Source: an uncultured Pelagibacteraceae bacterium (GTDB lineage Bacteria; Pseudomonadota; Alphaproteobacteria; Pelagibacterales; Pelagibacteraceae). Taken from it: a DNA stretch of 36,083 nt. Positions 10,699-35,935 of this stretch are shown here, in pieces (the stretch's first letter is position 1; every line of letters begins with the position of its first letter). The position numbers and the translations under genes were made by a program. The DNA lies in the NCBI GenBank assembly GCA_902535155.1, contig CACASB010000009.1, forward strand, positions 1-36,083, read 5' to 3'. A model generated the notes under the pieces. It did no database searches. It was not told where the DNA came from and worked only from the letters and a program-made list of their open reading frames with translations.

Positions 10699-11913
10699 AT
10701 GAGCAAAATTAAGGTCAAAAACCCAGTAGTCGAGTTAGATGGTGATGAAATGACTAGGGTTATATGGGAGTTTATTAAGAAGAAATTAATACTACCCTAT
10801 CTTGATCTTGGCATTGAATATTATGATCTTGGCATGAAGAGTAGAGATGATACTTCAGATCAAATTACAATAGACTGTGCTAATGCGATCAAAAAGAATG
10901 GGGTTGGGATTAAATGTGCAACAATCACCCCAGATGAGGCTAGGGTAAAAGAATTTAGTTTAAAAAAGATGTGGAGATCTCCAAATGGAACAATAAGAAA
11001 CATAATTGGAGGAACTGTTTTTAGAGAACCAATAATTTGTAAAAATGTTCCAAGATTAGTCCCATCATGGACAGATCCAGTTATTATAGGAAGGCATGCT
11101 TTTGGTGATCAATATAGAGCAACAGATTTTAAAGTTCCTGGAAAAGGAAAACTGGAGATAAAATGGACATCAGAAGATGGTAAAGATAATAAAAGTTATG
11201 AGGTGTTTAATTTCCCTGGACCTGGGGTTGCACTTTCAATGTACAATTTAGATAAATCAATCGAGGACTTTGCAAGATCATGTTTCAATTATGGGTTAAT
11301 TAAAAAATGGCCTGTTTATTTATCTACAAAAAATACTATTTTAAAAACTTATGATGGAAGATTTAAAGATATATTCCAAGCGGTTTTTGAAAAAGAATTT
11401 AAGTCAGATTTTAATAAACATAATTTAATTTATGAGCATAGACTTATTGATGACATGGTTGCGTGCGCTATGAAATGGAGTGGTAAATATATTTGGGCAT
11501 GTAAAAATTACGACGGAGATGTTCAGTCTGATACTGTTGCGCAAGGTTATGGATCTTTAGGACTAATGACAAGTGTGTTGTTAGCTCCTGATGGTAGAAC
11601 AATGGAAGCAGAAGCAGCACATGGTACAGTTACAAGACATTATAGAATGCATCAACAAGGAAAAGAAACTTCAACTAACCCTATTGCTTCAATATTTGCT
11701 TGGACAAGGGGTCTTGCTCATAGAGGTAAATTAGATACAAATGATGAGCTAATTAAATTTTCTAAAACTTTAGAAGATGTATGTATTAATTGTGTTGAGT
11801 CAGGTTCAATGACAAAAGACTTGGCAATCTTAATTAATAAAAATCAGAAATACCTAACAACTAATGAATTTCTCGATGCTATTGATGGAAATCTTAAGAA
11901 GAAATTAAATTAG
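10699..11913 (+). CDS. icd: NADP-dependent isocitrate dehydrogenase
   Basis: 404 aa; [51 protein letters not shown]...[22 protein letters not shown]...[35 protein letters not shown]. Confidence 0.98.
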
Positions 11914-16766: not shown

Positions 16767-16769
16767 AGG

Positions 16770-17357
16770 TTATCCTGTTGCATTCATTACTCTCTCACCT
16801 AAAGTAAAATCAAACATTTCAGCATTTGTTATTTCTAAATATTCAATTATTTCGTTGGAAATCTCAGTTTTACCGTAAGTGATAATTAGATCTCCAATAC
16901 TTAAATTTTTATATCCAGTCCAGCTATTATTTTTTGCTTCACTCCCTGGATCTGAAATAAAATTTTTAACAAACTCGTAAATTTCATTTTTATTCTCATT
17001 GTGTGAATTAATTAAGTTAATTCCAGCAATTTTAGAATTATAAACAATAACCTCTAAATCTGAATTTTCTAGAGATGAGCCTTCACAATAGTCTAGAGCA
17101 TAGTCTTCATATTTTGCAGAAAATTCATCTCCATACACATCTTTATTATGACCTTCTAAAAATTCAAATATTGTAACTGCGCTATTGACGTTTGATCCGA
17201 TGGGAACATTTAAAAGCTGACAAGCCAAGGACTTATTAGTAATAAAAAGTAATAAAAGAATATAAAAATATATTTTTTTCACAAAGTTAAATTTAAATAA
17301 TTGATAAAAATTTTCAATAGAGTTAATGAATAAATTATGTTCAATTTGACCGGTCAT
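16770..17357 (-). CDS. Uncharacterised secreted protein between pilX and pilY1
   Basis: 195-aa ORF; hydrophobic export signal VKKIYFYILLLLFITNKSLAC followed by a soluble domain. Start ambiguous: ATG at 17357 (TAAATG with the pilX stop) or GTG at 17282, which gives a cleaner signal peptide. Confidence 0.6.
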   Translation of the reverse strand: MTGQIEHNLFINSIENFYQLFKFNFVKKIYFYILLLLFITNKSLACQLLNVPIGSNVNSAVTIFEFLEGHNKDVYGDEFSAKYEDYALDYCEGSSLENSDLEVIVYNSKIAGINLINSHNENKNEIYEFVKNFISDPGSEAKNNSWTGYKNLSIGDLIITYGKTEISNEIIEYLEITNAEMFDFTLGERVMNATG

Positions 17358-18014
17358 TTAGTGGGATAAAATGGCAATTGTTTCAAGTGGGATTATAATT
17401 TCGGGTTTGGAAACATTTCCAAGAATACCACAAGCGTAAATTCTATATGCAGTTCCTTGTCTTTGTATAGTTCCTGATGTTTTTTTTAAACTAGAACCTG
17501 CAGCTTTATAGTTCGATGTGCCAGCATTAACTGAAAAATATTCAAATCTAAATTTTTGCATTCTCTTTGTCTCTTGATCAATCTCACTAGCGTCACCAAA
17601 ACTTGGAGCTGAAGTTAAAATAGGAGAAATAAGATTAAAAAATGACTGATCCTGTACATGTTCAACTACTTCAAAGTCATCTGCTCTACTTAAATTTCTA
17701 AAACTTTTATAACAAGGGGTATCTTGATCTAAATTTGATATTGCTTGCTCTACATTTGTTGGAATAGATCTTATATCCTCATTTCTAGAACCATCGTCTT
17801 GAACTGGGCCCATCATTTTATTTATTAGTGACTTTTGTGCTTCCATTAAACCGTGTTCTGCAACATAAAAAGTTTGTTGAAATTCATCGCTGCTATTATT
17901 GCTTTGATGGTCTGATGAAGAGATGACGATCAAACCACCTCCCATTAGTGACATCGCTAAAAGCAAAACCAGAGATAAAATTAAGGTAAAACCTTTTTCA
18001 TTTTTTTTTATCAT
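17358..18014 (-). CDS. pilX: PilX-like type IV pilus assembly protein
   Basis: 218 aa; N-terminus KKNEKGFTLILSLVLLLAMSLMGGGLIVISSSDHQ...FYVAEHGLMEAQKSL typical of PilX; between pilW and pilY1. Confidence 0.85.
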   Translation of the reverse strand: MIKKNEKGFTLILSLVLLLAMSLMGGGLIVISSSDHQSNNSSDEFQQTFYVAEHGLMEAQKSLINKMMGPVQDDGSRNEDIRSIPTNVEQAISNLDQDTPCYKSFRNLSRADDFEVVEHVQDQSFFNLISPILTSAPSFGDASEIDQETKRMQKFRFEYFSVNAGTSNYKAAGSSLKKTSGTIQRQGTAYRIYACGILGNVSKPEIIIPLETIAILSH

Positions 18015-19054
18015 TAAAATAAACTTCCACCAATATTTCTTGTGTTAACAGTTACGATTACAGAGTCTCTTAAAAACTTATCCTCATTTTCCTTTGATCG
18101 ATCATCTAATCCTGCAATAGTTTTTTTTTGGACTTCTTTATAAAAATCATCCTTAGATCTAAAAGTAAGTCTAATATCTACTCCCGATATATCATAAAGT
18201 CTTTTTCTAATTCCAGTTCCAGCTAATTCAGGTGCGGGATAATCGCCAGCGGAATCTTTAATTATTAATCCATCCTTATCGAATGGTATAAATTCCATGT
18301 CTTCAATGTGGTCTCTAACTAATTCTTTGTCTACACATTCGGGACAATCTTTTTGCCAACCTTCTGTTGCAGGATCATAATCCGCAGGCCATAAACAGGT
18401 TACCTCTCCTGATTCTTCGTCCTCAGTTTTATCTGCATCTGTTCTTGCTTGAGACCAGGACTCAACGGTCTTGTAAACAGCAAATCTTTTATTTGACCCA
18501 TCTCTATCGCTTTTTTCGTCTGCAAAATATGTAATCCTATATTTTTTAAAAGGCTGATTTAAATCATTTTGATTAAAATCTTCGTAAACAATCTCTATCT
18601 GATCACAACATAAACCAGTTCCGGCCACATTAGATTGTATCGACATACTTTCATCTTTGGTATTTTGGAAACCAATTCTATCTTTTCTTATTACCAATGG
18701 ATTATGACTTAACTTTTCATCAATAAAACCATTTTCAAATGTAAAATAACTTTTTTTTGGTAGTATCATCCCGTCTGGTTTGCATTCTCCACTAGTATCA
18801 TCAGCAAATTTAGAAATTGTCTGAGAACCCGCATAATATTTAAATCCAGCCATTCGTATATCTCTCATTAGCATTGAAACCAGATCCCTGCTTGATCTGC
18901 TAATTTTTGCTTTTTCACTTACTTGAGAGTAGGTGCTATTTACGACACTGTAAGTAGTGTATAATGCCCCCATCATTAAAGAGGTAATAATAATACCAAT
19001 CATAATCTCAATTAGTGTTAAACCTTTTTGATTTTTAAAATAAATATTATTCAT
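18014..19054 (-). CDS. pilW: PilW-like minor pilin
   Basis: 346 aa; prepilin signature QKGLTLIEIMIGIIITSLMMGALYTTY...SRDLVSMLMRDIRMAGF. Confidence 0.88.
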   Translation of the reverse strand: MNNIYFKNQKGLTLIEIMIGIIITSLMMGALYTTYSVVNSTYSQVSEKAKISRSSRDLVSMLMRDIRMAGFKYYAGSQTISKFADDTSGECKPDGMILPKKSYFTFENGFIDEKLSHNPLVIRKDRIGFQNTKDESMSIQSNVAGTGLCCDQIEIVYEDFNQNDLNQPFKKYRITYFADEKSDRDGSNKRFAVYKTVESWSQARTDADKTEDEESGEVTCLWPADYDPATEGWQKDCPECVDKELVRDHIEDMEFIPFDKDGLIIKDSAGDYPAPELAGTGIRKRLYDISGVDIRLTFRSKDDFYKEVQKKTIAGLDDRSKENEDKFLRDSVIVTVNTRNIGGSLF

Positions 19055-19651
19055 CTAATTAACTCCCACCAACTTGTAGTCTGCTTGAAAATATAAATAT
19101 TTCCTTTTCTTTCCGTCATTTAAATTTATTTGAATTCTACCAATATAAATTTCATCATCTTGAATGCTTGTATTAGTATAAGTACAACCAGATCTACATA
19201 TTTTATAAACTTGAAACTTTCTGGTTTCATTTACACCTCTACATTTTAAATATGACTTACTATTTAAAAGAGCTTTCCATTTGTTTAATTTCATTGCATG
19301 AGCATCAGAAGAACCTGTGCCATAAATTTTACCTACATCAGTTGATGCGGTTCCATCTTTAGATTTACATGCACCCGCATCAAATATTGGACTACTTTCG
19401 TCAGTCCCCATTAAATATTTTGTAAAATTTGAATGGGATGTGGTCGAAGAATCTCTGCTACTTATAACATCTTCTGCGATTACATTAGTTAAAAAATTAG
19501 CCTTAGTTCTTTCACCTGAGGTGTGCATTGACTGAACAGAATAATTAACCATCTGCAGAATAGCCACAAAACCAATTCCAATTATTACCGTAGACACCAA
19601 TGCTTCAAGCAAAGAAAGTCCTGATATATTTTTTTTGTTTTTAAAAATCAT
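19055..19651 (-). CDS. pilV: PilV-like minor pilin
   Basis: 198 aa; ISGLSLLEALVSTVIIGIGFVAILQMVNYSVQSM, PilV-type N-terminus. Confidence 0.85.
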   Translation of the reverse strand: MIFKNKKNISGLSLLEALVSTVIIGIGFVAILQMVNYSVQSMHTSGERTKANFLTNVIAEDVISSRDSSTTSHSNFTKYLMGTDESSPIFDAGACKSKDGTASTDVGKIYGTGSSDAHAMKLNKWKALLNSKSYLKCRGVNETRKFQVYKICRSGCTYTNTSIQDDEIYIGRIQINLNDGKKRKYLYFQADYKLVGVN

Positions 19652-20449
19652 TTATTCTATCCACCCTGTGCCACTCCATTTGGTTCTATAAAAATTTCCA
19701 AATCTAGACCACTTAATTGCATTTATATATTCACCACCTGTTGCAGGAACTTGTTCTTCATTTAGGCTAGCTTGGTTGTATATTACAGGACATGTTTCAC
19801 CATCATTAATTCTTCTACAAATATATATAAAACCAAAAGGTAGATCTGAATCGCTCAATAAATCTCCATTTGCCTCATAAAATTTTCCACCTCTTGAAAA
19901 ACATACTGCACCAACACCTTCGCTATCGCCTGCTCCCCCCATCATATCTACAGGGACAGCTTCCCCTTCTCCTAACTCTAGATCATTTCCACCTCCACCC
20001 GCAAATGAAGTTGTAACACTTGAAAAATTTACTTTGCTTACAAAACTTTTAATACTTGCGTCTGCATCTGCTGTATCAGTGTCCCAATAACTATCTTCAA
20101 AGGAACACCTTTGTGTAACATTATCAGGGAATTTTTGGTTCCAGGGATCGTCTCCATCATTCATTTTAGTTGCAAGAGTATCCATAGTCATTCCTTTGGT
20201 CTCTACAGTTAAACTTTTATCAGTATTTGTAAATTTTACTTGAACATATGCAAAAGTACCTTTTTCTGTTTGCGCATGAATATTTCTTATTAAAGATGAT
20301 ATTTTAGTTACAGCAGACCTTACTTCTCTTTCTTTATTCCAAGAAGAAAAATTTGGATAAGCAACAGCAGATATAACGCCAACTATTGCCAAGACAACTA
20401 ATAATTCAAGAATAGTGAAACCTTTAATGTTCTTTTCCAGCACTTGCAT
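19652..20449 (-). CDS. fimU: FimU/GspH-like minor pilin
   Basis: 265 aa; IKGFTILELLVVLAIVGVISAVAYPNFSSWNKEREVRSAVTKISSLI, FimU/FimT/GspH-like prepilin. Confidence 0.8.
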   Translation of the reverse strand: MQVLEKNIKGFTILELLVVLAIVGVISAVAYPNFSSWNKEREVRSAVTKISSLIRNIHAQTEKGTFAYVQVKFTNTDKSLTVETKGMTMDTLATKMNDGDDPWNQKFPDNVTQRCSFEDSYWDTDTADADASIKSFVSKVNFSSVTTSFAGGGGNDLELGEGEAVPVDMMGGAGDSEGVGAVCFSRGGKFYEANGDLLSDSDLPFGFIYICRRINDGETCPVIYNQASLNEEQVPATGGEYINAIKWSRFGNFYRTKWSGTGWIE

Positions 20450-21437
20450 CTATTTTTCCTGCTTTAACTAATTCCTCTAAAGACTTAGTCATGGTAATCA
20501 TACCATCTTTCACTGCAGTCTGCATGATGCTTGGGATTTGATGAATTTTTGCTTCTCTTATTAAGTTTTGAATTGGAGCTGTACACTTCATCACCTCAAA
20601 AGCACCACAACGTCCTTGGCCGTCTTTAGTTTTTAAAAGTCTTTGTGTAACTACCATCTTTAATGATGTTGAAATCTGTGCTCTGATTTGAGCTTGTTGC
20701 TCAGGTGGAAAAACGTCAATAATTCTATTTATTGTATTTGGTGCACCACTTGTGTGTAATGTTCCAAATACTAAGTGACCCGTTTCAGCAGCTGTTAAAG
20801 CAAGTCCAACTGTTTCTAAGTCTCTCATCTCACCAACTAAAATAACATCTGGGTCTTCTCGTAATGCAGCCTTTAATGCACTTGCAAAAGTTTGTGTTTG
20901 TTTTCCAACTTCCCTGTGAGAGACAATACTTTTAATGTCTTTATGAATAAACTCAACAGGATCTTCAACTGTAATAATATTTGCAGTTCTAGTTTTATTT
21001 ATTTCATTAACGATTGCGGCAAGAGTTGTAGATTTTCCTGATCCAGTTGGTCCTGTAACTAGTACTAATCCTTTATGCATATCAATTATATCATAGAGAA
21101 CTGGTGGAAGATCAAATTGACCCATTTCTGGTATAACGCTCTCTACTCTTCTTAAGACTGCTGCTGGACCAGTAATGGTTTTATAAAAATTTGCCCTAAA
21201 TCTTAGTCCACTTAATGTAACAGATGAGTCTAGCTCATGGGTATCATTAAACTTTTTCATTTCTACTTCGTTGCAATTGGTTGAAATAAGATCTTGTAGA
21301 TCTTGTGCTTTAACCATTACTTCTTGAACTTTATGAATTTCACCTGTTTGTCTATATGCTAAAGGCCAACCGCTTCTAATATGAAAATCTGAAATTTTTT
21401 TATTATTTTTCGCAAGTTCTTCTAATTTTTCAAACAT
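20424..21437 (-). CDS. pilT: PilT/PilU-family pilus retraction ATPase
   Basis: 337 aa; Walker A GPTGSGKST, Asp/His boxes (ITVEDPVEFIH, VGEMRDLETVGLALTAAETGHLVFGTLHTSGAPNTINRIIDVFP). Confidence 0.95.
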   Translation of the reverse strand: MFEKLEELAKNNKKISDFHIRSGWPLAYRQTGEIHKVQEVMVKAQDLQDLISTNCNEVEMKKFNDTHELDSSVTLSGLRFRANFYKTITGPAAVLRRVESVIPEMGQFDLPPVLYDIIDMHKGLVLVTGPTGSGKSTTLAAIVNEINKTRTANIITVEDPVEFIHKDIKSIVSHREVGKQTQTFASALKAALREDPDVILVGEMRDLETVGLALTAAETGHLVFGTLHTSGAPNTINRIIDVFPPEQQAQIRAQISTSLKMVVTQRLLKTKDGQGRCGAFEVMKCTAPIQNLIREAKIHQIPSIMQTAVKDGMITMTKSLEELVKAGKIDASAGKEH

Positions 21438-23914: not shown

Positions 23915-25969
23915 TTATTTCTTTTTGATCAGCTCGGTATTTTCTATATTGATAGCCATACAAGTAATATCGTCCCTTAATTTTTCTGCCCCCCAATTGA
24001 GCTCTTTTTCTATACCGAGTACTATATTTTTTGGGTTAATATTTTCAATACTGTTTATGATATTTTGAACTCCTTCTGCCCCTAGTTCTTCACCATTTTT
24101 AAGGTATCCCTCTGTAACCCCGTCTGTATAAACAACGAATGTTTTATCTTTTAGGTTCATGGTATTTGATTTTACCATTGTCTCTGTGAAGTACTTAATT
24201 ATTCCAATTGGAGGCATATCAGACTTTATATATTCGTAATTTTTACCCTTATCAAAAGTTAGAATACTTTCATGACCTGCATTTATAAATACTAATTCTC
24301 CTGTTTTAATATTTAACTTGCCAAATACAGCAGTTACAAACATTCCTTTAAATTTAGCTTCAACAAGTTCATTATTCACTCCAAAGACAACTTTTTCTAG
24401 AGGAAATTTTAGATTGGTAAGTGTTCTAAATATGGATGATGCTTTTGCCATGTACATTCCAGCCTTCACACCTTTTCCAGATACATCGGCTAAAGTAAAA
24501 AAATACTCTTCAGGTGTTGATCTTACAACATCAAAGTAATCTCCTGATACATCTCTTGCAGGAACGTTTCTAGCAAAAATAAAGTTTTCAAATTTTGAAA
24601 TATCTGGGAATAAACTTTTCTGAACTCCAGCAGCAAGTTCTCTTTCTTTTAAAAGTTTTGCCTCTTTTTGTAGATTTGCAAGTGCTAATTTATTTTCTTC
24701 TATAAATCTAAAGTACAACCCTGTTAAGAAAGTGATTGTTAAAATAAATATTGGGTAACTAATATCTACAAGTTCTGACCTAAATTTATAAATATAAAAA
24801 CCAATTACAATTATTAATAAAAGATTACCAAAAAATACTGACAAGCTGTATTTTGGTCTTATTTTTTGAGATAAAATAAATGTTAATAATGCAACAATTA
24901 TAGAAAATAACAATTCAAAAACATATGTATTTGGGTTTCTAACTAAATAAGATTGATCTAAAATATTTTCAATAACATTTGCGTGAACTTCAACTCCAGG
25001 AACAGTTAAGCCTGTTGGTATTTTGACTAAATCAAAAAGTCCTTGCGCTGATGCACCAATCAAAACATATTTGTCTTTAAAAAAATCTGTTTGGAATTTA
25101 CCATCAAAAACATCTCCTGCAGATATATATTGTTTTTTTTGGGGTTCTTTATATTTAATCCAAATAATCCCATTAGGATCTGAGTCTATTTTATAAGGTC
25201 TTGCGCTTATTCTATTAATTCCAACTTCGTTTAACTCGATGTATATATTTTTTTGATTTTCTCCAACTCGAACCATTTCTAATCCCATGGTTGGATATAT
25301 TTTGTTATTAAGTCTAACTATTAATGGAAGCGATCTAATTATACCATCCAACTGGTCTAAAAAAGATATAGAACCCAAACCTTGTACTTCTTTTTCTAAT
25401 TTTTCTAATGAACCAATTGAGTATGGGTAAGAATATGTGAAATCTTTTGGATCTCCTCCTTTTGATAAGAATTTTGCTTTTGCCTTTCGCTCATAATTTG
25501 AATGTGATGGAACATTGCTACCTAAAACTGCTGTAACTGTTTTTGCACTTTTTAATTTTTCTGCAAAAACATCATCATGACCTTTTAATTTTTGGAGATC
25601 AGCAATATCAGATGGTATTAATCCATAAGATTTAATAATTTCTTCGGGGGATTGTTTATCTTTTTCTGTAAAAAAAACATCAAAACCAATTGCCTTTGGA
25701 TTGGAACTTTCAACTTGATCGATAATTTTTGCAAAAACAGATCTGCTCCAAGGAAATTGACCAAATTTACCTAGGCTTGTTTCATCAATATCTATTATGA
25801 CAACATCTGTATCACCTTTTTTTTCTACAAATACTTTTTGATATAAATCAAAACTTAAATATGAAATGGACTTAATTAAGGAAGGGTTGATTACTTTTAG
25901 AGAAATTAAAATTAATAAAAGGATTAAAAAAATTAAGTAATTAAAGTTTTTTTCAAAAAAAGCACGCAC
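23915..25969 (-). CDS. CHASE2-domain sensor with C-terminal SpoIIE/RsbU-type PP2C serine phosphatase
   Basis: 684 aa, GTG start; TM then CHASE2 (VVIIDIDETSLGKFGQFPWSRSVFAKIIDQVESSNPKAIGFDVFFTEKD), three TMs, then SpoIIE (AAGVQKSLFPD...PARDVSGDYFDVV...TLADVSGKGVKAGMYMAKASSIF...VVYTDGVTEG...LRDDITCMAI). Confidence 0.92.
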   Translation of the reverse strand: MRAFFEKNFNYLIFLILLLILISLKVINPSLIKSISYLSFDLYQKVFVEKKGDTDVVIIDIDETSLGKFGQFPWSRSVFAKIIDQVESSNPKAIGFDVFFTEKDKQSPEEIIKSYGLIPSDIADLQKLKGHDDVFAEKLKSAKTVTAVLGSNVPSHSNYERKAKAKFLSKGGDPKDFTYSYPYSIGSLEKLEKEVQGLGSISFLDQLDGIIRSLPLIVRLNNKIYPTMGLEMVRVGENQKNIYIELNEVGINRISARPYKIDSDPNGIIWIKYKEPQKKQYISAGDVFDGKFQTDFFKDKYVLIGASAQGLFDLVKIPTGLTVPGVEVHANVIENILDQSYLVRNPNTYVFELLFSIIVALLTFILSQKIRPKYSLSVFFGNLLLIIVIGFYIYKFRSELVDISYPIFILTITFLTGLYFRFIEENKLALANLQKEAKLLKERELAAGVQKSLFPDISKFENFIFARNVPARDVSGDYFDVVRSTPEEYFFTLADVSGKGVKAGMYMAKASSIFRTLTNLKFPLEKVVFGVNNELVEAKFKGMFVTAVFGKLNIKTGELVFINAGHESILTFDKGKNYEYIKSDMPPIGIIKYFTETMVKSNTMNLKDKTFVVYTDGVTEGYLKNGEELGAEGVQNIINSIENINPKNIVLGIEKELNWGAEKLRDDITCMAINIENTELIKKK

Positions 25970-26024
25970 ATTAGTGAGTGTATATCTTAATTATCTAATG
26001 TAAATCTTTATGAAACTAAGCTAA

Positions 26025-27314
26025 TTACTTCTTCTTATTTCTTTTCTTTTTAGCTTTTTTCTTCTTAGCTGCTTTTTTCTTCTTAGCTACTCTTTTGATT
26101 TTCTTTTTCTTTTTAGGCTTTTTAGGTTTAGCTTTTTTCTTTTTAGGCTTTTTAGGCTTGGCTTTCTTTTTAGGTTTTTTCTTAGCTGGTTTTTTAGCTT
26201 TAGGTTTTTTCTTAGCTGGTTTTTTTGCTTTAGCTTTTGGTTTTTTCTTAGACGGAGCTTTTGCTTTAGGTTTTTTCTTAGACGGAGCTTTTGCTTTAGC
26301 TTTTTTCTTTTTACCTTTTTTTCCGTCTTTAGCTTTTGCTTTTTTCTTTTTATCTTTTTTACCGTCTTTAGCTTTAGCTTTTTTCTTTTTACCTTTTTTG
26401 CCTTCTTTTACTTTTCCTTTTTTCTTTTTACCTTTTTCACCTTCTGCTTTAGCTTTTTTCTTTTTCTTTTTCTTTTTTTCTGCTTTTTTTTCTGTTTTTA
26501 ATGCAATTTTTTTCTCTTTATCTTTTTTAATATTCTCTTTAATTATTGATTTAATTTCCTCTTTTTCAAAACCTAAAGATTTTAATTCTTTCTTTAATTC
26601 TTTTCTTGCAGCTTTTTTTGCAATTTTCTTTTCGCCTTTATCAACTTTGCTTTTGCTCAAGGCTCTCATTTTTTTATTAAATTTTTTAAGTTGAGATCTA
26701 GTAATTTTTCTTGCTTTATCAGGCGCCTTACCTTTACTCATTGAGGTGACGCTGTAAGGATTATCTAATAAAGTTTTACCAAATTTGTTACTCGCTAAAA
26801 CTGCTCCTGGCCTCATACCTAAAGTATTGTTTTTACCAGGACCGATTAATAAAGTATCTGTTTTACCTTTTGATACTATAGTTTGAAATTCTGTACCTCT
26901 AGATCCTAATGTTCCTTCTGGAACTGTAACAGTTAGACTATCTGGATCTTTTTGACTTATTAAACCCGATATAACTTTTAAACTTCCCTGCTTAACACTT
27001 GCAACAATTTTTCCATCATTGGTTTTTGGATCGTATATAAAAGTATCCATCACAACTTCAGAATCTTCTCCAACTGTAAAAGTTGATTGGTCTAAAAGTA
27101 ATATTTGTGTTCCCGATCCTTGTGAAGAATAAATTGTTTCATTCAAATAAATTTTGTCACCTTCTTTTAATTCTCTTGTTTCAGTTTTAACTGTTCCTGA
27201 AATTGCTCCAACAATACCTACGAGTTGTTTTTCAATTGTAAGTGTTTCTTCTGCGTATGAGTTAAAACTCATAAACATTATTGAGCACAGAATTGTCGAT
27301 ATCAGTTTTTTCAT
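26025..27314 (-). CDS. Secreted FecR-domain protein with a long Lys/Ala/Pro-rich histone-H1-like C-terminal tail (likely start 27314)
   Basis: ORF 26025..27341; signal peptide MKKLISTILCSIMFMSFNSYAEE begins at 27314; FecR-like GVIVGAISGTVKTETRELKEGDKIYLNETIYSSQGSGTQILLLDQSTFTVGEDSEVVMD region (actual text GIVGAISGTV...); tail KKKPKAKAPSKKKPKAKAKKPAKKKPKAKKPAKKKPKKKAKPKKPKKKK.... Confidence 0.85.
   Translation of the reverse strand: MKKLISTILCSIMFMSFNSYAEETLTIEKQLVGIVGAISGTVKTETRELKEGDKIYLNETIYSSQGSGTQILLLDQSTFTVGEDSEVVMDTFIYDPKTNDGKIVASVKQGSLKVISGLISQKDPDSLTVTVPEGTLGSRGTEFQTIVSKGKTDTLLIGPGKNNTLGMRPGAVLASNKFGKTLLDNPYSVTSMSKGKAPDKARKITRSQLKKFNKKMRALSKSKVDKGEKKIAKKAARKELKKELKSLGFEKEEIKSIIKENIKKDKEKKIALKTEKKAEKKKKKKKKAKAEGEKGKKKKGKVKEGKKGKKKKAKAKDGKKDKKKKAKAKDGKKGKKKKAKAKAPSKKKPKAKAPSKKKPKAKAKKPAKKKPKAKKPAKKKPKKKAKPKKPKKKKAKPKKPKKKKKIKRVAKKKKAAKKKKAKKKRNKKK
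26239..26298 (-). repeat. Perfect 30-bp tandem duplication within the Lys-rich tail coding region
   Basis: Plus strand: ggttttttcttagacggagcttttgcttta at 26239-26268 repeated exactly at 26269-26298; encodes KAKAPSKKKP units. Flanking 36-bp-scale imperfect repeats encode DGKK(D/G)KKKKAKAK. Confidence 0.9.
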
Positions 27315-27424
27315 CAATTTAAAATTATCACTATTTTCCAAAAAATAAACCTTTTTAAACTCAGTATGATCAGGATAAATGTTATATTTTTAAGCATTTT
27401 TCACCTTATCCGTTAGATTTGATA

Positions 27425-28729
27425 TTAAAATGATTTTGTAAAACTTAATGAAAAAGAATCTGAGTGATAATCATAATTAAGAGTATTTGCCTCTGAAATT
27501 ACTTTTTCATAAGATAAGTTTATAAATAAATTTCTATTTTGATCTATTGCAGGAAATATATCCCCTATTGCTTTAGTTAACATAATATCAAATGTGTTTG
27601 CAAAATCTGATCTAAGTCTATCAGAAGCAACACTTGGGTCTTCTTTTTTATAATCATTAAAACTCATACCATTAGTTATAGCTATAAACGCCCATGGAAA
27701 TGATAAGTTTATTCCTAAACTAAAATCATAAGTTTCATAATCATTTCCAGCATCTACTCTTGCATCAGTGTCGCTGTAACCTAGGCCAATCGAGGTAGAT
27801 ATAATTTCAGTAAAAATATAATCATGATTAAATGTATAACCATGTCCAATAGAATTTGTTTCTTGTGCAGTGAGATCTGAATTATTTTGGTTTCCTTTAG
27901 AGTCTGAAAATGAATAACCATAACTAAATGAATTTCTTTCACCAACTGTAAAAAAACCACCTATACCCATCCCTGTAGAAAAACTATCTGCATCGGTATG
28001 ATAGTCTGATTTGCTAACGGTAAAGTATGGACTTAAGCTTTGACCGCCTAATACTGTATCTAAACCAAGAGTTAATCCATAAGACTGAAAATCATCATCA
28101 TGTTCTTGGTGTTGGTTAGATGTTGTATGAGATATATTTGCTAAAAAAGACGACTCTTCACCAATTGGTCTTGTAGCTGAAAAACTTATTCCTCCACTAG
28201 TAGTCTTATCAAACATAGCAGATGTAAATTCTGCAACTTCACCTTCTTCACTTTTCTTTCTATTTTTAGAAACACTATTTACATTGTTGCTTATAAGACT
28301 TGCAATACTAATATCCACACTTAAATTCCATAAACCTGGCTCTTTATCTTTTAAATCTTGCTCAATTTCTTGTAGCGTTTCCAAATCCTCTGATTGTAGA
28401 TCTGTCCTAAGTTTCATTTCCTCAATTAAACTTCTTGCTTTATCTGGTGAGTCTATTTGTACCAATACTGATAATAAATATAACTTAATTTCAACGTTAT
28501 CAGGGTACAGCATCGTTAATCTTTCAAGAGTTGAAATGGTTTGTTTATAATTTCCCATCTTTCCTTGTTGTTGTGCATATTTTAAATTCAAATCTAAATC
28601 TCTTGGTTTCTGTAGAATTTGCATGTAAGTAATATTTTTTTCCACTGATAGAACTGGATAAGTATTAAAAGGTATAAATAAAATATTTATAAAGACTATT
28701 ATCAAAGTATATTTAAGAAACATTTTCAT
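27425..28729 (-). CDS. Outer-membrane protein: N-terminal TPR region and C-terminal beta-barrel (Slam/DUF560-like architecture)
   Basis: 434 aa; signal peptide; TPR-like NLKYAQQQGKMGNYKQTISTLERLTMLYPDNVEIKLYLLSVLVQIDSPDKARSLIEEMK; alternating beta-strand pattern to a terminal Phe (SDSFSLSFTKSF). Confidence 0.7.
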   Translation of the reverse strand: MKMFLKYTLIIVFINILFIPFNTYPVLSVEKNITYMQILQKPRDLDLNLKYAQQQGKMGNYKQTISTLERLTMLYPDNVEIKLYLLSVLVQIDSPDKARSLIEEMKLRTDLQSEDLETLQEIEQDLKDKEPGLWNLSVDISIASLISNNVNSVSKNRKKSEEGEVAEFTSAMFDKTTSGGISFSATRPIGEESSFLANISHTTSNQHQEHDDDFQSYGLTLGLDTVLGGQSLSPYFTVSKSDYHTDADSFSTGMGIGGFFTVGERNSFSYGYSFSDSKGNQNNSDLTAQETNSIGHGYTFNHDYIFTEIISTSIGLGYSDTDARVDAGNDYETYDFSLGINLSFPWAFIAITNGMSFNDYKKEDPSVASDRLRSDFANTFDIMLTKAIGDIFPAIDQNRNLFINLSYEKVISEANTLNYDYHSDSFSLSFTKSF

Positions 28730-28871
28730 AAAAAACAGAAGATTAATTAAATAATAAAAAAATTCAATTTTTTAAAATATTAATACGAGCTTAAAATTAA
28801 GCTTAATTAACTATTTTAAGGGGTAAAATAATCAAAATAGGTTTTTTTTAAGAGAAACTACTTTTCAAAAA

Positions 28872-29162
28872 TTATCGATAAATGCTCATTGGATCAAATA
28901 TACAATCATCCCGATCCAGAGTTTCAAAAAAAATTTCTGTTAGCTCTGAACTGTGAACAGTTTGGCAAATTCTTTCTGCTTTTACCTCGTTTGAAACATT
29001 TTTTCTTACGGTTTGCATTCCATATGAGCTTCCTAAGGAGGTTGAGGCTTGTAAAACACTTCCTGTCTCGAGCAAAGTATAACTAGGTCCAATCATAGCA
29101 GTATATTGTCCGCATCCACTTAGTAATAAACAAAATGCTATATACCAATAAATTTTTCTCAT
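28872..29162 (-). CDS. Small lipoprotein
   Basis: 96 aa; MRKIYWYIAFCLLLSGCGQYTAMIGPSYTLLETGSVLQ, lipobox LLSGC. Confidence 0.7.
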   Translation of the reverse strand: MRKIYWYIAFCLLLSGCGQYTAMIGPSYTLLETGSVLQASTSLGSSYGMQTVRKNVSNEVKAERICQTVHSSELTEIFFETLDRDDCIFDPMSIYR

Positions 29163-29207
29163 ATTGACTAATTAAAATAGTTAAAGTTTAAAATCAATTA
29201 TTAAATT

Positions 29208-29645
29208 TTAACCACAATTTTCTCTTTGAATTGCTTGGTTTTTAGTTAAGGATATTTGGCAGTCAGAATTTTGGTCCTCTGCTAATATGGTATAAGTTGT
29301 TTCACTTGCATAAGAACAAAAATAAAATTCCATTTCATTATAAGCTATATACTTTTCATCGTTAAATAAATCTTGTCCTAAAAGTTTTGAGGTATTCTCA
29401 TTAGCTGAGCATGTGTCTGCTGTCCCAGAAGGATAATATTCACCAGTGTTTGTATAATATTCTAGTTGAGCTAAGGATGCTTGTTGTAAAAAATTTTCAG
29501 CAGAACTTTTTTTAGCACTTGTTACATAACCGTTGTAAGAAACAGTTCCAACCGCTGCAAGTATTCCAAGTACAGCTACAACCACAAGAAGTTCTATTAA
29601 AGTAAAACCAGAACTTCTTGTGATATAAAATTTTAACTTGCTCAA
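29208..29645 (-). CDS. pilE: Type IV pilin, PilE-like
   Basis: 145 aa; RSSGFTLIELLVVVAVLGILAAVGTVSYNGYVTSAKKSSAENFLQQASLAQLEYYTNTGEYYP, C-terminal Cys pair. Confidence 0.9.
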   Translation of the reverse strand: MSKLKFYITRSSGFTLIELLVVVAVLGILAAVGTVSYNGYVTSAKKSSAENFLQQASLAQLEYYTNTGEYYPSGTADTCSANENTSKLLGQDLFNDEKYIAYNEMEFYFCSYASETTYTILAEDQNSDCQISLTKNQAIQRENCG

Positions 29646-29670
29646 ATTAGTTATCTTCTAAATTAAATAA

Positions 29671-30159
29671 CTATTCTATTGAAACAGAGTTTGTCATTAC
29701 CGAGTCTGAAGATGTAGTATCACAAGCTGGAGTATCGCCAACTTCAGCAAAACAACTTGATATGGTTACTGTGCTACCATCATCTGCAACACTAACTTGT
29801 CCTAAAACTACAGCAACAGATCCATCATCAGCAGCAGTAACTTTTTTAACTCCATCACCATCACTGTCTTCAGCATTTTTAAAATCAGATAAAGCAGTCT
29901 CCGCGGCGGTTGCTACATTACCTGCAGTTTTCCTTACATTGCAAGCAGTAGATCCCATGTACGTGCTATCTCCGATGTTACATTTTTGTAGCTCAGAAGC
30001 TACATACTTAACAACTGAAGCATGATTAGATTTTGTTGCGTTTTTTTTAGCACTAGCTGTGTAACCTGTATAAGCAACTGTACCAACAGCTGCAAGAATA
30101 CCTATGATAGCCACAACAACTAATAGTTCAATAAGCGTAAAACCTTTATTATTTTTCAT
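29671..30159 (-). CDS. pilA: Type IV pilin, candidate major pilin
   Basis: 162 aa; MKNNKGFTLIELLVVVAIIGILAAVGTVAYTGYTASAKKNATKSNHASVVKYVASELQKC; first gene after the divergent intergenic region. Confidence 0.9.
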   Translation of the reverse strand: MKNNKGFTLIELLVVVAIIGILAAVGTVAYTGYTASAKKNATKSNHASVVKYVASELQKCNIGDSTYMGSTACNVRKTAGNVATAAETALSDFKNAEDSDGDGVKKVTAADDGSVAVVLGQVSVADDGSTVTISSCFAEVGDTPACDTTSSDSVMTNSVSIE

Positions 30160-30286
30160 TTAGGCCTCTTTATTTATATATTAATATTAATTGTGTAATT
30201 CTTAATAAATTTTAAAAATAAGTAAATACTTTAAAAAGCCTGTAACTGCTTGTTAAATTGATATCTTTATTTTTTTTATAGAATAA

Positions 30287-30315
30287 TTGACATATGTGCT
30301 CATAATGAGCAAAAT
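30287..30315 (+). promoter_or_regulatory. Candidate promoter for the STAS-STAS-HATPase operon with a palindrome between the -35 and -10
   Basis: TTGACA at 30287-30292; palindrome TGCTCAT-A-ATGAGCA at 30297-30311; possible weak -10 CAAAAT at 30310-30315 (17-bp spacer). Confidence 0.4.
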
Positions 30316-30342
30316 TATAAAAATACTAATTTAAATAGCTTA

Positions 30343-30627
30343 ATGACATATAAAATAGAGGAAAACGGAAATTCGAGGATTATTCATCTGACAGGAGAAA
30401 TTGATATGGATGTAGCAGACAAAGCAAGGCAATCGATATTACCATTGATTGAAGCAGGACACGAAGTTCATTTAAATTTGAGTAAAGTTGAATATATGGA
30501 TTCATCTGGAATTTCAGTTTTAATTGAAAGTAAAAAATTGTCTGAAAAAAAAAATACAAAGTTCGAACTAGTTGAAGTCAGTAAACCAGTAGAAAAAGTT
30601 TTAGCAATGGCAAGGAAATTTTTATGA
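30343..30627 (+). CDS. STAS-domain anti-sigma-factor-antagonist-like protein (RsbV/SpoIIAA family), copy 1
   Basis: 94 aa; HLTGEIDMDVADKARQSILPLIEAGHEVHLNLSKVEYMDSSGISVLIES with the phosphorylatable DSSGIS motif. Confidence 0.93.
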   Translation: MTYKIEENGNSRIIHLTGEIDMDVADKARQSILPLIEAGHEVHLNLSKVEYMDSSGISVLIESKKLSEKKNTKFELVEVSKPVEKVLAMARKFL

Positions 30628-30923
30628 GTTATAAAGTTACTGAAGAGGGAAATATTGCTACTGTTCATCTTGATGGTGAAATAGATATGGATGTTACAGA
30701 AAAGGCAAAAGAAGTTATATTTCCTCATATTGATGCTGGTAAAGAAGTTCACTTAAATTTAAGCAATGTTCAATATATGGACTCTTCTGGAATATCTGTA
30801 TTAATAGAAAGTCATCAGAAAGCTTTAGAAAAAAATACAAAAGTAATAATAAAAGATGTGAGTAAATCAGTTCTTAAAGTCATTATGATGGCTAAATTAG
30901 AACAAATATTAAATTTGGAATAA
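30624..30923 (+). CDS. STAS-domain anti-sigma-factor-antagonist-like protein, copy 2 (tandem paralogue)
   Basis: 99 aa; HLDGEIDMDVTEKAKEVIFPHIDAGKEVHLNLSNVQYMDSSGISVLIES; ATGA overlap with copy 1. Confidence 0.93.
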   Translation: MSYKVTEEGNIATVHLDGEIDMDVTEKAKEVIFPHIDAGKEVHLNLSNVQYMDSSGISVLIESHQKALEKNTKVIIKDVSKSVLKVIMMAKLEQILNLE

Positions 30924-30928
30924 ATTTT

Positions 30929-31360
30929 ATGAGTGAAACTGCTCACTTAGACCATTCGGAAAAAAAGGCCTTTTTAGTAAATTCATCTAGTTTAAAAGAG
31001 GTCAGAAATTTTTGTCGCGAGGTGTTCGAAAAGCTTCAAATACAACAAGAATTAAAAGATGAATTGGTATTAGCTATTGCTGAGGCTGCGCAAAATATTG
31101 TAAAGCATGCGTTTAAAAACTCTGCTGATGTAAATGAATTAATGGTTGTTGAAATTAGTTGTGAGAATAACAAGCTTCAAATTGCATTTTATGACAGAGG
31201 CACACCTGTTGATCCAAAGAAAGTTAAACACAGAGAAATTGATAATGTTAAGCCAGGGGGCTTAGGAACCTTTTTTATTCAAGAAATAATGGATGCTGTA
31301 GAATTTAAGGATGGTAATAAGCCTTGGATAAATCATCTTGTTTTAACAAAACAATTATAA
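30929..31360 (+). CDS. RsbW/SpoIIAB-like HATPase serine kinase / anti-sigma-like protein
   Basis: 143 aa; N-box ELVLAIAEAAQNIVKHAF, G1-like FYDRGTPVDP, G2-like KPGGLGTFFIQEIMD. Confidence 0.92.
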   Translation: MSETAHLDHSEKKAFLVNSSSLKEVRNFCREVFEKLQIQQELKDELVLAIAEAAQNIVKHAFKNSADVNELMVVEISCENNKLQIAFYDRGTPVDPKKVKHREIDNVKPGGLGTFFIQEIMDAVEFKDGNKPWINHLVLTKQL

Positions 31361-31366
31361 TTATAA

Positions 31367-32608
31367 TTATCCTATTAAAGCTCCAACGTTGAATATTGGA
31401 GAATACATTGCAATCATTAATCCTCCGATCATTAAACCCATGAATACAATCATGATAGGCTCAATTAAAGAAGATAAATTATCAACAACTGTATCAAATT
31501 CTGACTCGTAATATTTGGCTACTGATCCAAACATTTCATCCAGTTGACCAGTTTGTTCACCTACAGAAATCAATTGACTAAAAGTAGGAGGAAACAAAGG
31601 ATCTTTTAAAAACAATTTTGTTAAAGTGTCTCCTGAAAAAACTCCTTTTTTTACATTTTCTAAAGACTCGAGTACGACCACATTGGTACTTACTGATTTT
31701 GCAATCTCTAAGCTCTCTAATAAATTTACACCTGCTGCACTAAGATTACCCATGATTAAGGAAATTCTTGCTAACATAGATTTTAATATCATATCACCAA
31801 ATATTGGAAGCTTTAAAACCTGTTTGTGCCATAAATATCTTATTTTTTCGTTTTTTGTTGTCAAATATTTGAAAGAGAAAAAAAATATAACTAAAATTAA
31901 AAACATCAGCTTTCCTCCTGTACCTCTAAGAAAATCACTCATACTCATAATTGTTGCTGTTGCTGCTGGAAGTTCAATACCCATTCCATCATACATTTTT
32001 GCAAAAACTGGAACTACTTTAATTAACATGAATGCACTTACTGTAATAGCAACAGTAAACATTATACTCGGATACATTAGAGCACCTTTAATTTTCTTTT
32101 TAATTGCCTCTTTTTTTTCGAGAGACTCAACTATTTTGAGCAGGAATACATCTAGCTTACCACTAGCTTCACCTGCTTTTATCAAATTTATATAAACGTT
32201 ATCAAATAACTCTGGGTATTTTTCAAAACATTTTGAAAGAGTAACACCCCCCTCTAAACTTTTTCTAATATCCTCAATGACGTCTTTCATTGCGGGGCTT
32301 TCTATTTGATCCCTTAACATTCCTAATACTTGAAGAATTGGCAAACCTGCTTTTACCATTGTAGCAAACTGCTTGGAAAATATTAAAACATCTTCTACTT
32401 TTGCTTTCTTTTTACCAAATAAAGAGGAGCCTTTTTTCTTTTTGACTGTCTTATCCTCTTTTTTTTTACCCTTAGCAGCTCTAATTAAATTTGTGATTAT
32501 TATTTTTTGCTCTTTTAGTTTGTGGGAAGCTTCATCTGGATTTATAGCTTCAATATTTCCTTCAACATATTTTCCGTCTGAAATTCCTTTATAAGCGTAA
32601 GTATCCAT
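31367..32608 (-). CDS. pilC: Type IV pilus inner-membrane platform protein
   Basis: 413 aa; VEDVLIFSKQFATMVKAGLPILQVLGML...LFDNVYINLIKAGEASGKLDVFL...LSSLIEPIMIVFMGLMIGGLMIAMYSPIFNVG. Confidence 0.96.
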   Translation of the reverse strand: MDTYAYKGISDGKYVEGNIEAINPDEASHKLKEQKIIITNLIRAAKGKKKEDKTVKKKKGSSLFGKKKAKVEDVLIFSKQFATMVKAGLPILQVLGMLRDQIESPAMKDVIEDIRKSLEGGVTLSKCFEKYPELFDNVYINLIKAGEASGKLDVFLLKIVESLEKKEAIKKKIKGALMYPSIMFTVAITVSAFMLIKVVPVFAKMYDGMGIELPAATATIMSMSDFLRGTGGKLMFLILVIFFFSFKYLTTKNEKIRYLWHKQVLKLPIFGDMILKSMLARISLIMGNLSAAGVNLLESLEIAKSVSTNVVVLESLENVKKGVFSGDTLTKLFLKDPLFPPTFSQLISVGEQTGQLDEMFGSVAKYYESEFDTVVDNLSSLIEPIMIVFMGLMIGGLMIAMYSPIFNVGALIG

Positions 32609-32620
32609 AAAAATTTACTA

Positions 32621-34370
32621 TTACTCGTTTGATAAGACTCTTTCGTACTCTCTAAAATTTAATTCTCCACTTGCAATAAGTCTTTTTCCCATATCTTGCA
32701 TAGTTTGAAAACCCTCTTTAATAGCGATTTCTCTTAGTTCAGGTGTAGTAGCTTTTCTTAAAATAGCCTCTTTCAAAGGTTTTGACACAACTAAGATTTC
32801 ATATATACCTTGTCTTCCTTTATATCCCGTATTACTACAAACCTCACATCCCTTGCCTTTAATTGCTTTTACTCTTGAAGCTTGTTCGGCGCTGAAACCT
32901 AAATCTTGTAATACTTTAGGGTTTACATCATCATCAGGAATTTTACATTCTTTGCAATTTTTTCTAGCAAGTCTTTGTGCAACAACTAATTGACATGCTG
33001 CGCTTATTAAGTAGTCAGGTGTTCCCATATTTTGCAATCTAGTAATTGTGCTTGGCGCGTCGTTAGTATGAAGTGTACTAAAAACTAAGTGACCTGTTAA
33101 AGCTGCTTTTAATCCAATATCAACTGTTTCTTTATCTCTCATCTCACCCACCAAAATTATTTCCGGGTCTTGTCTTAAAAAAGATCTTAGAGCTTTAGCA
33201 AATGTAAAACCAATATCGTCTTTTATCTGGACTTGTCCGACACCATCTAATTCATATTCAACAGGATCTTCTGCAGTTAAAATGTTTAAATGAGGCTTGC
33301 TTACCTCTTTTAAAATACTATAAAGCGTTGTCGACTTACCTGATCCAGTTGGACCTGTAACAAGAATTAGACCCTGTGTAGAGTGAATAGATTTTCTTAA
33401 ACTCTTTAAGTCCTGGTCTTCAAAATTTAATTGCTCTAGTGTTATGTCTCCAGCGTCTTTGTTCAACACCCTCATTACAATTCTTTCATTGTTTGCAGTA
33501 GGTAAAATCGATAGACGAAGATCGATAACTTTTCCTTCTATTTTGAAATTAATGGCACCGTCTTGTGGAAGTCTACGCTCTGCAATATCAAGTTTACCCA
33601 TAATCTTAAAACGCGTTACTACAGCACCATAGTTATCATGTAAAAATTTTCTATATTGCTCTTGTTCTTGAAGCATACCATCGAGTCTGTATCTAACTCT
33701 GGATGAAAATCTATAAGGCTCTATATGAATATCACTCACTCCTTTTTTAATCGCTTCAGCAACAACGGCAGTACTGAATTTTATTACTTCAGACTCATTT
33801 TCAAGGGCTTCTATATCTTCCTCGGGAGCTTTTTCTAATACCTCTCCAGCTTCACCTAATTCAGAGTCAAAAGTTTTTTGCTTTTCCTTGTTTTCATTTC
33901 TAATTGTTGCGGTGGTAACTTCGCCATCGCTTGAAATCTTTTCAATAAATTCAGAGATTTGACTTAGTGGTGCAGCATGTAATTCAATATTTTTTTTTTG
34001 TTATTGCCTTTAAATTTCTCATCAAAGTTAGTTTGGAGCTATCTGGAATTGCTATGTGTAAAGTTTTACCATCTACTTTAAATGGTGCTACAAAATTAAC
34101 TTTTATGTAATTTGAAGGCAACACAGATTTTATATCGTTAGATATTGTAATTTTTTTTAAATCTATAATCTCTAGGTTTTGTTCCTTTACCAAAATATCT
34201 AAAATTTTTTGCTCATCAGTAAGTTTCAAATCAAAAACAGCCTCAATTTGCGATTTATTACCTTCAGAGCTTTTTTTTTTGATATTAATTAAATCTTTTC
34301 CTGAAATAACATCATTATCAATCAAGACATTAATTAAATTTATTTCGCTTTCTCTACTAATCTTTAACAT
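32621..34370 (-). pseudogene. pilB: Type IV pilus extension ATPase, split by a single-base frameshift in an A10 tract (fragments 32621..33739 and 33984..34370)
   Basis: N-terminal fragment (T2SSE N-domain-like) ends ...LKAITKKKY*; with one A fewer it continues ITKKNIELHAAPLSQISEFIEKISSDGEVTTATIRNENKEKQKTFDSELGEAGEVLEKAPEEDIEALENESEVIKFSTAVVAEAIKKGVSDIHIEP into the catalytic part (GPTGSGKST, VGEMRDKETVDIGL, CKEC...CEVC zinc motif). May be functional by slippage or a sequencing error. Confidence 0.85.
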
Positions 34371-34378: not shown

Positions 34379-35935
34379 TTACAAAATTCTTGGCGCTATA
34401 AACACCAAAAGTTCATTAAGTTTATCTGATTTTGACGAACCTTGAAACATTTTTCCTAAAATAGGTACTTTTGAAACCCCTGGAACAGCATCTTTTGAAT
34501 TTGCTACTTCATTTTTTTTAATTCCACCAATTACGACAATATCGCCATCAGCAACTAATAGTTTTGTTGTAATTTCCATTTTATTAATTCCAATAGAGCC
34601 AGGATTTGTTCTATCTGGAGTATCGTTATTAACTTGTATTTCCATTAAAACATTACCGTCACCAATAATACTTGGGGTAATTTTCAATATTAGAGCAGCA
34701 TCAACAAGTTGTGGTCCTGTATCGCCACTACCTGGAAGCTGAATTTGAACACCTTGTTTAATTGATGCTGTTTGATTATCTAAAGAGAAAAGTTTGGGAT
34801 TTGAAATAGTTTTGCTCAACCCTTCTGTTTCTAGAGCATCTAATTGAAGTTTTAAAACTGCAGAACCTGTTCTTCTTAAAACTCCAATTCCGCTAGTTGC
34901 TGCTCCTACAGCATTAGATGCAAAAATATTATCTGATGCACCCCCTATAGCAGCTGTGCCAGAACTAATAGCTCCTCCTGTACCTTCGGTTTCACCGACA
35001 GATGACACACCTCCTGCAGTACCACCAGCTCTAACTCTATTTCTTGTATAAGCTGCACCAAGTTTTGTTCCTAACGCACGTTCAAAGTTTGAGGTTGCTT
35101 CAACAATAAATGCTTCCATCAAAACTTGTTTTGTTCTTACATCAATTTCTCTAATTATTTTATCAACTACATCTAAATCTTTTTCTTTACCTCTTACTAT
35201 TATAGATCTTGTAGTTTTTTCCTCTGTTACTTGAATTGGAACAAATGCTCCACTTGTGGCTGTTGAGGTAAACAATTCTGTAATTGTAGCTTTAGCCTCT
35301 GCAGGTGAAATGTAATATAATCTAAAAATTTCAGAGATGATTGGTTCAACAGAGTCTTCTAATTCAACTTTCTTTTTGACTGCTTGGGCTCTTGCAGATT
35401 TATAACTTTCTTGTGAAGTTAAAGTTGATGGTGTTGCTACTCTAATTATATTACTTCCTACATCAATATCTGCTGCATAATTTTTTATATCTAAAAGAGC
35501 ATTAAATGCTTTGTCCCAAGGAACGTTAACAAGTTCTGCTGTTATAGATCCAGCAACATCTTCGCCGACAAGAATATTAATATCTCCAATCTTAGCCATT
35601 AAATTCATTGCCTCTTCATAGTCCATGTTTTGAAATTTAAAAGATACGTTCTGCTTTAAATTTGGATAATCTTCAGAAATTAAAAGGTAATTTCTCTCTT
35701 TTACAGAAGATATTTTTTTTCTTTTTTGAAGTTTTGTTACATCTGCTTCAGCAGGAATAGGTCCCATTTTTGCATCTTTTTCAATCTCAGCTTTTCCAAT
35801 TTTTTTTACATCTGTTTTTATTAGAGGTGTATCGTGTTTAAAACCTTTTACTTTTTTGCCTGTTTGAGTACATCCAGTTACAAGAAAAATTAACAAAATA
35901 AAACTTAAAATTATTTTATAGTAATCATTTTTCAT
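34379..35935 (-). CDS. pilQ: Outer-membrane secretin of PilQ/MshL type with lipoprotein signal
   Basis: 518 aa; lipobox FLVTGC; VSFKFQNMDYEEAMNLMAKIGDINILVGEDVAGSITAELVNVPWDKAFNALL; secretin core ILKITPSIIGDGNVLMEIQVNNDTP...VPILGKMFQGSSKSDKLNELLVFIAPRIL. Confidence 0.92.
   Translation of the reverse strand: MKNDYYKIILSFILLIFLVTGCTQTGKKVKGFKHDTPLIKTDVKKIGKAEIEKDAKMGPIPAEADVTKLQKRKKISSVKERNYLLISEDYPNLKQNVSFKFQNMDYEEAMNLMAKIGDINILVGEDVAGSITAELVNVPWDKAFNALLDIKNYAADIDVGSNIIRVATPSTLTSQESYKSARAQAVKKKVELEDSVEPIISEIFRLYYISPAEAKATITELFTSTATSGAFVPIQVTEEKTTRSIIVRGKEKDLDVVDKIIREIDVRTKQVLMEAFIVEATSNFERALGTKLGAAYTRNRVRAGGTAGGVSSVGETEGTGGAISSGTAAIGGASDNIFASNAVGAATSGIGVLRRTGSAVLKLQLDALETEGLSKTISNPKLFSLDNQTASIKQGVQIQLPGSGDTGPQLVDAALILKITPSIIGDGNVLMEIQVNNDTPDRTNPGSIGINKMEITTKLLVADGDIVVIGGIKKNEVANSKDAVPGVSKVPILGKMFQGSSKSDKLNELLVFIAPRIL

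Follow-up and report, generated by a model that had tools for sequence, protein, structure and literature searches.

A partner-switching module inside the type IV pilus locus of SAR11 bacteria and its candidate output on the pilus

Introduction

What does a partner switch control when its genes are interleaved with those of a type IV pilus (T4P) and the genome yields no dedicated sigma factor? This question is raised by a 36,083-nucleotide stretch (hereafter the window) of contig CACASB010000009.1, assembly GCA_902535155.1, from an uncultured Pelagibacteraceae (SAR11) bacterium, in which an RsbU-type phosphatase, two STAS proteins and an RsbW-like serine kinase are encoded among pil genes. SAR11 are among the most abundant bacteria of the ocean. 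Here, from an analysis of the window and its relatives, we propose, at a probability of about 0.57, that these genes encode a sigma-independent partner switch, similar to the Hmp system of Nostoc, with the type IV pilus as the target of its STAS/kinase output.

Results

A complete and conserved partner switch

The core of the module lies on the forward strand and consists of three genes: i) STAS1 (30343..30627; Pfam STAS 1.3e-17, NCBIfam ant_ant_sig 2.3e-20), an RsbV/SpoIIAA-type phospho-acceptor; ii) STAS2 (30624..30923; Pfam STAS 6e-17), the core phospho-acceptor, which like STAS1 carries a DSSG motif; and iii) an RsbW-like serine kinase (30929..31360; HATPase_c_2, Pfam 1.2e-19), whose N box and G boxes are intact and whose nearest solved relative is RsbW (6m36). 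A four-base overlap joins STAS1 to STAS2, and five bases separate STAS2 from the kinase, so that the three apparently form one operon. The phosphatase, a CHASE2-SpoIIE membrane protein of the RsbU type (23915..25969; Pfam CHASE2 2.6e-53, SpoIIE 1.3e-30), is encoded on the reverse strand. An initial annotation, made from the sequence alone, had described a single complete triad here, and Pfam searches and translations bore this out: every gene that it named was found in place, with the SpoIIE catalytic motifs, the DSSG motifs and the N/G boxes all present. Within the 877-kb, 75%-complete assembly of the window (G000), the kinase is the sole HATPase_c_2 match and CHASE2-SpoIIE the only SpoIIE protein detected.

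These motifs are nearly invariant, as DSSG is kept in 151/151 STAS copies, the N box in 89/90 kinases and the PP2C-type Asp motifs of SpoIIE in nearly all relatives, suggesting that selection maintains the chemistry. STAS2 is 73-99% identical across the relatives compared, while STAS1 is missing from many that retain STAS2. The two STAS genes first described as a set are thus a conserved core (STAS2) and an optional duplicate (STAS1).

Linkage to the type IV pilus

T4P genes flank the module on both sides, as initially annotated, with pilT and the minor pilins on the left and pilC, pilB and the secretin on the right. From pilT rightward the minus strand carries an autotransporter, CHASE2-SpoIIE, a FecR protein, a TPR-barrel protein, a lipoprotein and two pilins; STAS1, STAS2 and the kinase follow on the plus strand, diverging from the pilins and running towards pilC (31367..32608, minus strand; Pfam T2SSF 6e-57), which lies 6 bp from the kinase gene. 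Among 80 named SAR11 loci surveyed, the kinase and pilC were convergent in all 78 showing both genes, with a gap of -4 to +7 bp in 63 of the 78. The recurrence of this order and orientation in tens of SAR11 genomes argues that the locus is not a chance arrangement. The larger insertions between kinase and pilC, where identifiable, hold an extra pilin and/or autotransporter gene (e.g., L184, L221 and L236), marking the gap as an insertion spot.

Co-occurrence was assessed in a genus sample of 115 genomes (114 at >=90% completeness plus G000): kinase and PilC were both present in 58 and both missing in 54, PilC alone was found in three (G113, G117 and G193, the last with a fragment at a contig edge), and the kinase alone in none. 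PilC was therefore present in 58/58 kinase-positive genomes. Across 100 relatives, strong kinase and PilC matches likewise coincided in the genomes of the genus, G003 deviating with a contig that ends inside the kinase. STAS tracked the kinase in the 61 genomes searched, except in G035, whose contig also ends in the kinase. Among the matches listed, kinase relatives from named genomes were all Pelagibacteraceae, mostly single-cell genomes, the closest (AG-913-A07) being 100% identical. The module can thus be counted as a conserved component of the SAR11 pilus locus, to which it is strongly linked. The initial annotation had staked its case on co-occurrence in relatives, and this part stood, with G113, G117 and T4P loci of a sister family as exceptions.

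A second arrangement was found in G012, G118 and G203, whose T4P is diverged (pilC 43-44% identical to that of the window) and whose genes are reshuffled. STAS and pilD abut in the complete genome G012 (STAS up to 741355, pilD from 741356), and in G118 and G203 STAS also lies just before pilD. The kinase of this lineage is <1 kb from pilT, and CHASE2-SpoIIE is again accompanied by the TPR-barrel and FecR genes. The strongest case for a functional link to the pilus is that STAS and kinase are each, independently, close to a different pil gene. The STAS protein of this lineage, encoded in G012 directly ahead of pilD (L260 8853-9356), is extended by a long acidic C-terminal stretch, and G203 carries a second STAS elsewhere in its genome.

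The rearranged lineage also bears on the idea that the switch governs another surface output (autotransporters, or export by the TPR-barrel and lipoprotein), its position beside pil genes reflecting a variable surface-gene island. Autotransporters do occur around the locus and between kinase and pilC, and a published SAR11 autotransporter adhesin gene adjoins T4P genes (PMC12636525). However, autotransporters come and go and differ in number between loci, whereas kinase, STAS2, pilins and pilC remain together, several kinase loci have no autotransporter within the fetched flank, and the STAS neighbour in the rearranged lineage is pilD. We therefore regard such an output as improbable.

No dedicated sigma factor

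The module has the family features of the Rsb and SpoIIA systems, namely a HATPase_c_2 kinase with N and G boxes, a STAS-only protein with DSSG and a SpoIIE/PP2C phosphatase with its Asp motifs. Their dedicated sigma target was not found in G000 or G012, and the module is therefore not classed as an anti-sigma system. The initial annotation had seen no sigma-factor partner, and the genome searches agreed: G000 and complete G012 each encode two Sigma70_r2 proteins, which by match length and the literature would be of RpoD and RpoH type. No sigma-54 match reached the cut-off in the 61 genomes searched, G000 and G012 included, and a weaker third Sigma70_r2 match was seen in G018. An alternative sigma factor or sigma-54 as the target was thus rejected after the search of G000 and G012, the inventory of G012 comprising one SpoIIE, one kinase, one STAS, two Sigma70_r2 proteins and no sigma-54. 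Genomes of the genus without the switch mostly carry the same two sigma factors or fewer.

The intergenic region shared by the pilin and STAS-kinase operons (30160..30342), a putative role assigned from aligned intergenic regions, contains a dyad, GCTCATAATGAGC, at 30298-30310, just downstream of a TTGACA hexamer and identical in near relatives. A promoter/operator explanation was rejected, as the dyad is kept solely in near relatives and sigma-70 matches are near chance.

The kinase may instead be an anti-sigma factor for RpoD or RpoH themselves, altering transcription including that of pil genes, so that the pilus linkage would reflect its regulon. Its homology to RsbW/SpoIIAB and the phosphosites reported on both SAR11 sigma factors (PMC13198564) are consistent with this. 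However, two sigma factors are present with and without the switch while the kinase follows PilC, SAR11 is described as responding little at the level of transcription (PMC13198564), and the intergenic comparison did not establish that a divergent promoter and an operator beside it are conserved. An anti-sigma role is thus unlikely, though more credible than a non-pilus surface output.

Three types of sensor phosphatase

The CHASE2 phosphatase with its FecR and TPR-barrel neighbours had initially been taken as the core sensor, a view that had to be given up: CHASE2-SpoIIE is one of three input types, and Amt-SpoIIE and GAF-SpoIIE in the same locus substitute for it or add to it. As a universal input CHASE2 was rejected, since it occurs in only 18/101 relatives and Amt and GAF phosphatases are found with or without it; in some kinase-positive genomes, including G204, the locus lacks a CHASE2 phosphatase. 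In many genomes the position next to the pilins is taken by Amt-SpoIIE; GAF-SpoIIE is located near pilMN and pilD. Where the flank towards the pilins extended over >=9 kb (54 loci), CHASE2-SpoIIE was present in 44, Amt-SpoIIE in 36, both in 29 and neither in three, so that 51/54 had at least one. All three types stand on one contig with pil genes in G016, a near-identical sister of the window; the window has no Amt-SpoIIE, and its contig stops before the spot where G016 has GAF-SpoIIE.

The Amt domains are full-length (PF00909 ~1e-110, plus SpoIIE PF07228, in two G204 proteins), so that an Amt transducer, i.e., Amt joined to an output domain, is found in relatives of the window and not in the window itself. 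By sequence match the Amt domain of a 745-aa protein is much nearer to fused or transducer Amts (8qj3 2.6e-123; 6eu6 6.8e-82) than to AmtB (~1e-33). The closest solved relatives examined are Ks-Amt5 (6eu6), an Amt-histidine kinase (PMC5764959), and the fused Amt 8qj3/8qpf; these share with the SAR11 proteins an Amt domain joined to a cytoplasmic signalling domain, whereas the SAR11 output domain is a SpoIIE phosphatase. On this sequence similarity, Amt-SpoIIE is a candidate for ammonium-dependent signalling. Two subtypes, of about 716 and 745 aa, were seen (L321-L324, L319: G101, G103, G204), in tandem in G103 and G204, and may differ in ligand or range. A limited literature search found no published Amt-SpoIIE fusion, which is weak evidence of absence, and an open literature search found no published CHASE2-SpoIIE partner switch and no report of SpoIIE in SAR11.

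The envelope genes beside CHASE2-SpoIIE

The secreted FecR-domain protein (26025..27341, minus strand; Pfam FecR 4.5e-7) and the TPR and 14-strand beta-barrel outer-membrane protein (27425..28729, minus strand) adjoin CHASE2-SpoIIE in 44/44 CHASE2 loci; because of this constancy, the three probably form one sensing unit. Both genes also occur without a nearby CHASE2 gene in G055. In the AlphaFold model of the TPR-barrel protein, of moderate confidence (pLDDT 74), 14 long strands accompany a helical TPR domain; OmpG, a 14-strand porin, and BcsC, a TPR-barrel protein, are among its best PDB matches. A Slam-type lipoprotein exporter, suggested by the TPR, the 14 strands and the adjoining lipoprotein, is at most possible, as no Slam-family Pfam match was found and the best folds are those of OmpG and BcsC. 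About half of the tail residues of the FecR protein are lysine; this long C-terminal tail is kept in close relatives, the FecR protein of G012 looks different, and binding of a polyanion (DNA or lipopolysaccharide) by the tail is possible. A secreted FecR protein beside a membrane CHASE2 sensor in an operon for surface behaviour is also known from the Burkholderia BiofilmReg operon (PMC5192318), where CHASE2 belongs to a histidine kinase paired with a response regulator; in SAR11 it belongs to a SpoIIE phosphatase, and a TPR-barrel is added.

Other genes of the window

All remaining features lie on the minus strand. Next to the TPR-barrel gene are a small lipoprotein (28872..29162; lipobox LLLSGCG in the translation), which recurs at the same place in relatives, and the type IV pilins 2 (29208..29645; Pfam N_methyl 6e-8) and 1 (29671..30159; N_methyl 8e-11), the latter divergent from the STAS-kinase operon. 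On the far side of pilC lie pilB (32621..34370; T2SSE 8e-120) and the secretin gene pilQ (34379..35935; Pfam Secretin 1e-37). PilB is split into two open reading frames (ORFs) in different frames (32621-33739 and 33984-34370), while relatives have a single ORF of 582-590 aa (582 aa with an MshEN domain in G016); the split is either an assembly error or a true lesion in this single cell. On the left, the retraction ATPase PilT (20424..21437; T2SSE) has a 53% identical homologue in G012 and lies beside FimT/PilV/PilW/PilX-like minor pilins and a PilY1-like tip protein (11910..20449; N_methyl in three), whose order beside pilT recurs in relatives; the names PilX and PilY1 come from position and features, Pfam giving no support. 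The overlap of the autotransporter ORF with the CHASE2 gene arises solely from an upstream TTG start.

Discussion

The proposed switch and its weak points

The gene content, intact motifs, linkage, co-occurrence and number of sigma factors, all directly observed, are combined here with a phospho-relay inferred from family knowledge and with a proposed pilus target, ligands and sign of regulation. In the proposed mechanism, CHASE2-SpoIIE would sense the periplasm or envelope, Amt-SpoIIE probably external ammonium, and GAF-SpoIIE a cytoplasmic ligand. These phosphatases would remove phosphate from the DSSG serine of the small STAS proteins, which the one RsbW-like kinase would rephosphorylate, and the phosphorylation state would set whether STAS, or the kinase sequestered by STAS, binds an output partner. 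With no dedicated sigma factor detected, and with switch and pil genes intermixed in two arrangements, the switch most likely controls the pilus machine post-translationally, e.g., through an assembly ATPase or platform protein. Direct action on a pilus protein, a possibility raised in the initial annotation, would fit; PilB (with the MshEN domain of G016), PilC and PilM are candidate partners by position. The relay probably lets minimal SAR11 cells tune pilus activity to nutrient or envelope state.

The Hmp system offers a parallel; its original study is reportedly that of Riley in 2018. In Nostoc punctiforme, HmpU/HmpV/HmpW form a partner switch in T4P motility, the STAS protein HmpV being the proposed output to an undefined effector (PMC8256260, PMC6495340). 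Both systems combine a SpoIIE-type phosphatase, STAS and an RsbW-type kinase, and both are tied to T4P, Hmp through motility and the SAR11 module, a candidate member of this type, through strong gene linkage and co-occurrence. However, Nostoc possesses numerous sigma factors and follows a developmental programme, whereas the SAR11 switch is encoded within the pil locus and has a single kinase served by several sensor phosphatases, of which two kinds out of three (Amt- and CHASE2-) are membrane sensor fusions. With the Bacillus RsbU/RsbV/RsbW and SpoIIE/SpoIIAA/SpoIIAB systems the module shares the three enzyme and acceptor families with intact motifs, and it differs from them in that neither the SAR11 locus nor the window genome nor complete G012 has a dedicated sigma factor.

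Several lines of evidence weigh against a switch acting on the pilus: i) the Fisher value for co-occurrence (1e-29) is overstated, as adjacent genes drop out jointly from gapped, incomplete assemblies and the genomes share ancestry; ii) the single-contig genomes of the sample leave just six with both genes (G012, G101, G103, G118, G203 and G204) and one with neither (G104); iii) the T4P loci of G113 (L329) and G117 (L330), whose pilC is more diverged, have no STAS or kinase beside pilC; iv) T4P genomes of the sister family (G066, G069, G075, G085 and G099) have no switch at the locus; v) GAF-SpoIIE occurs in four assemblies without a detected kinase (G009, G023, G034 and G039), which also have no PilC match and in at least some of which the pil contig is cut; vi) a Chlamydia Rsb network governs the primary sigma factor, according to a reference in PMC8256260, so that RpoD or RpoH may be the partner; and vii) linkage and co-occurrence are no proof of direct action, so that the pilus is a candidate target. 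Since switch-free T4P loci exist, SAR11-type pili can operate without the switch, which is an add-on and not a required part of the machine. L329 and L330 are natural switch-free loci for comparison.

The lone kinase of SAR11

The genome G204, a single contig of 1,308,759 bp, has two Amt-SpoIIE, STAS1, STAS2, kinase and GAF-SpoIIE genes inside 19 kb among pil genes, the two STAS genes spanning 66490-66774 and 66771-67070, and its one RsbW-like match is at this pil locus. G204 matches strain HTCC1062 in size, and its kinase is very probably SAR11_0057. RsbW-type kinases usually act on a single class of substrates, STAS proteins. In the HTCC1062 phosphoproteome (2025), RsbW (SAR11_0057) was the only predicted Ser/Thr kinase and was detected as a protein, none of the six annotated phosphatases was predicted to act on proteins, and the authors called for the substrates of the kinase (PMC13198564). 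The main text of that paper contains no 'pil-' word and treats RsbW as a lone kinase, whereas what is very probably the same gene is accompanied here by STAS, SpoIIE phosphatases and pil genes.

The published status of SAR11_0057 would fit a broad Ser/Thr kinase behind the SAR11 phosphoproteome that is no pilus regulator. However, kinase and PilC are both absent from about half of the near-complete genomes of the genus, including single-contig G104 (99% completeness), which makes a general SAR11 kinase unlikely. Moreover the gene keeps its place among the pil genes, and the usual restriction of RsbW-type kinases to one substrate class argues in the same direction, so that we consider a broad kinase about as improbable as a non-pilus surface output.

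Implications for SAR11 biology

SAR11 are described as minimally regulated, with two sigma factors and a handful of two-component systems (PMC13198564), and the role of T4P in SAR11 is not known (PMC12636525). The locus provides the phosphoproteome kinase with candidate substrates (STAS) and with candidate phosphatases whose sensor domains can be named, and it points to the type IV pilus as a candidate output. At least where STAS is concerned, the SpoIIE proteins are the obvious choice for the phosphatases missing from HTCC1062. More tentatively, and at somewhat less than even odds, a sigma-independent switch acting directly on the T4P machine, fed by Amt, CHASE2 and GAF phosphatases, may be the main Ser/Thr phospho-signalling of piliated SAR11 and tie ammonium sensing to pili. 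SAR11 genes annotated as ammonium transporters may include sensors of the Amt-SpoIIE type, and, if the proposal is true, nutrient (ammonium) sensing would be coupled to pili in these streamlined ocean bacteria.

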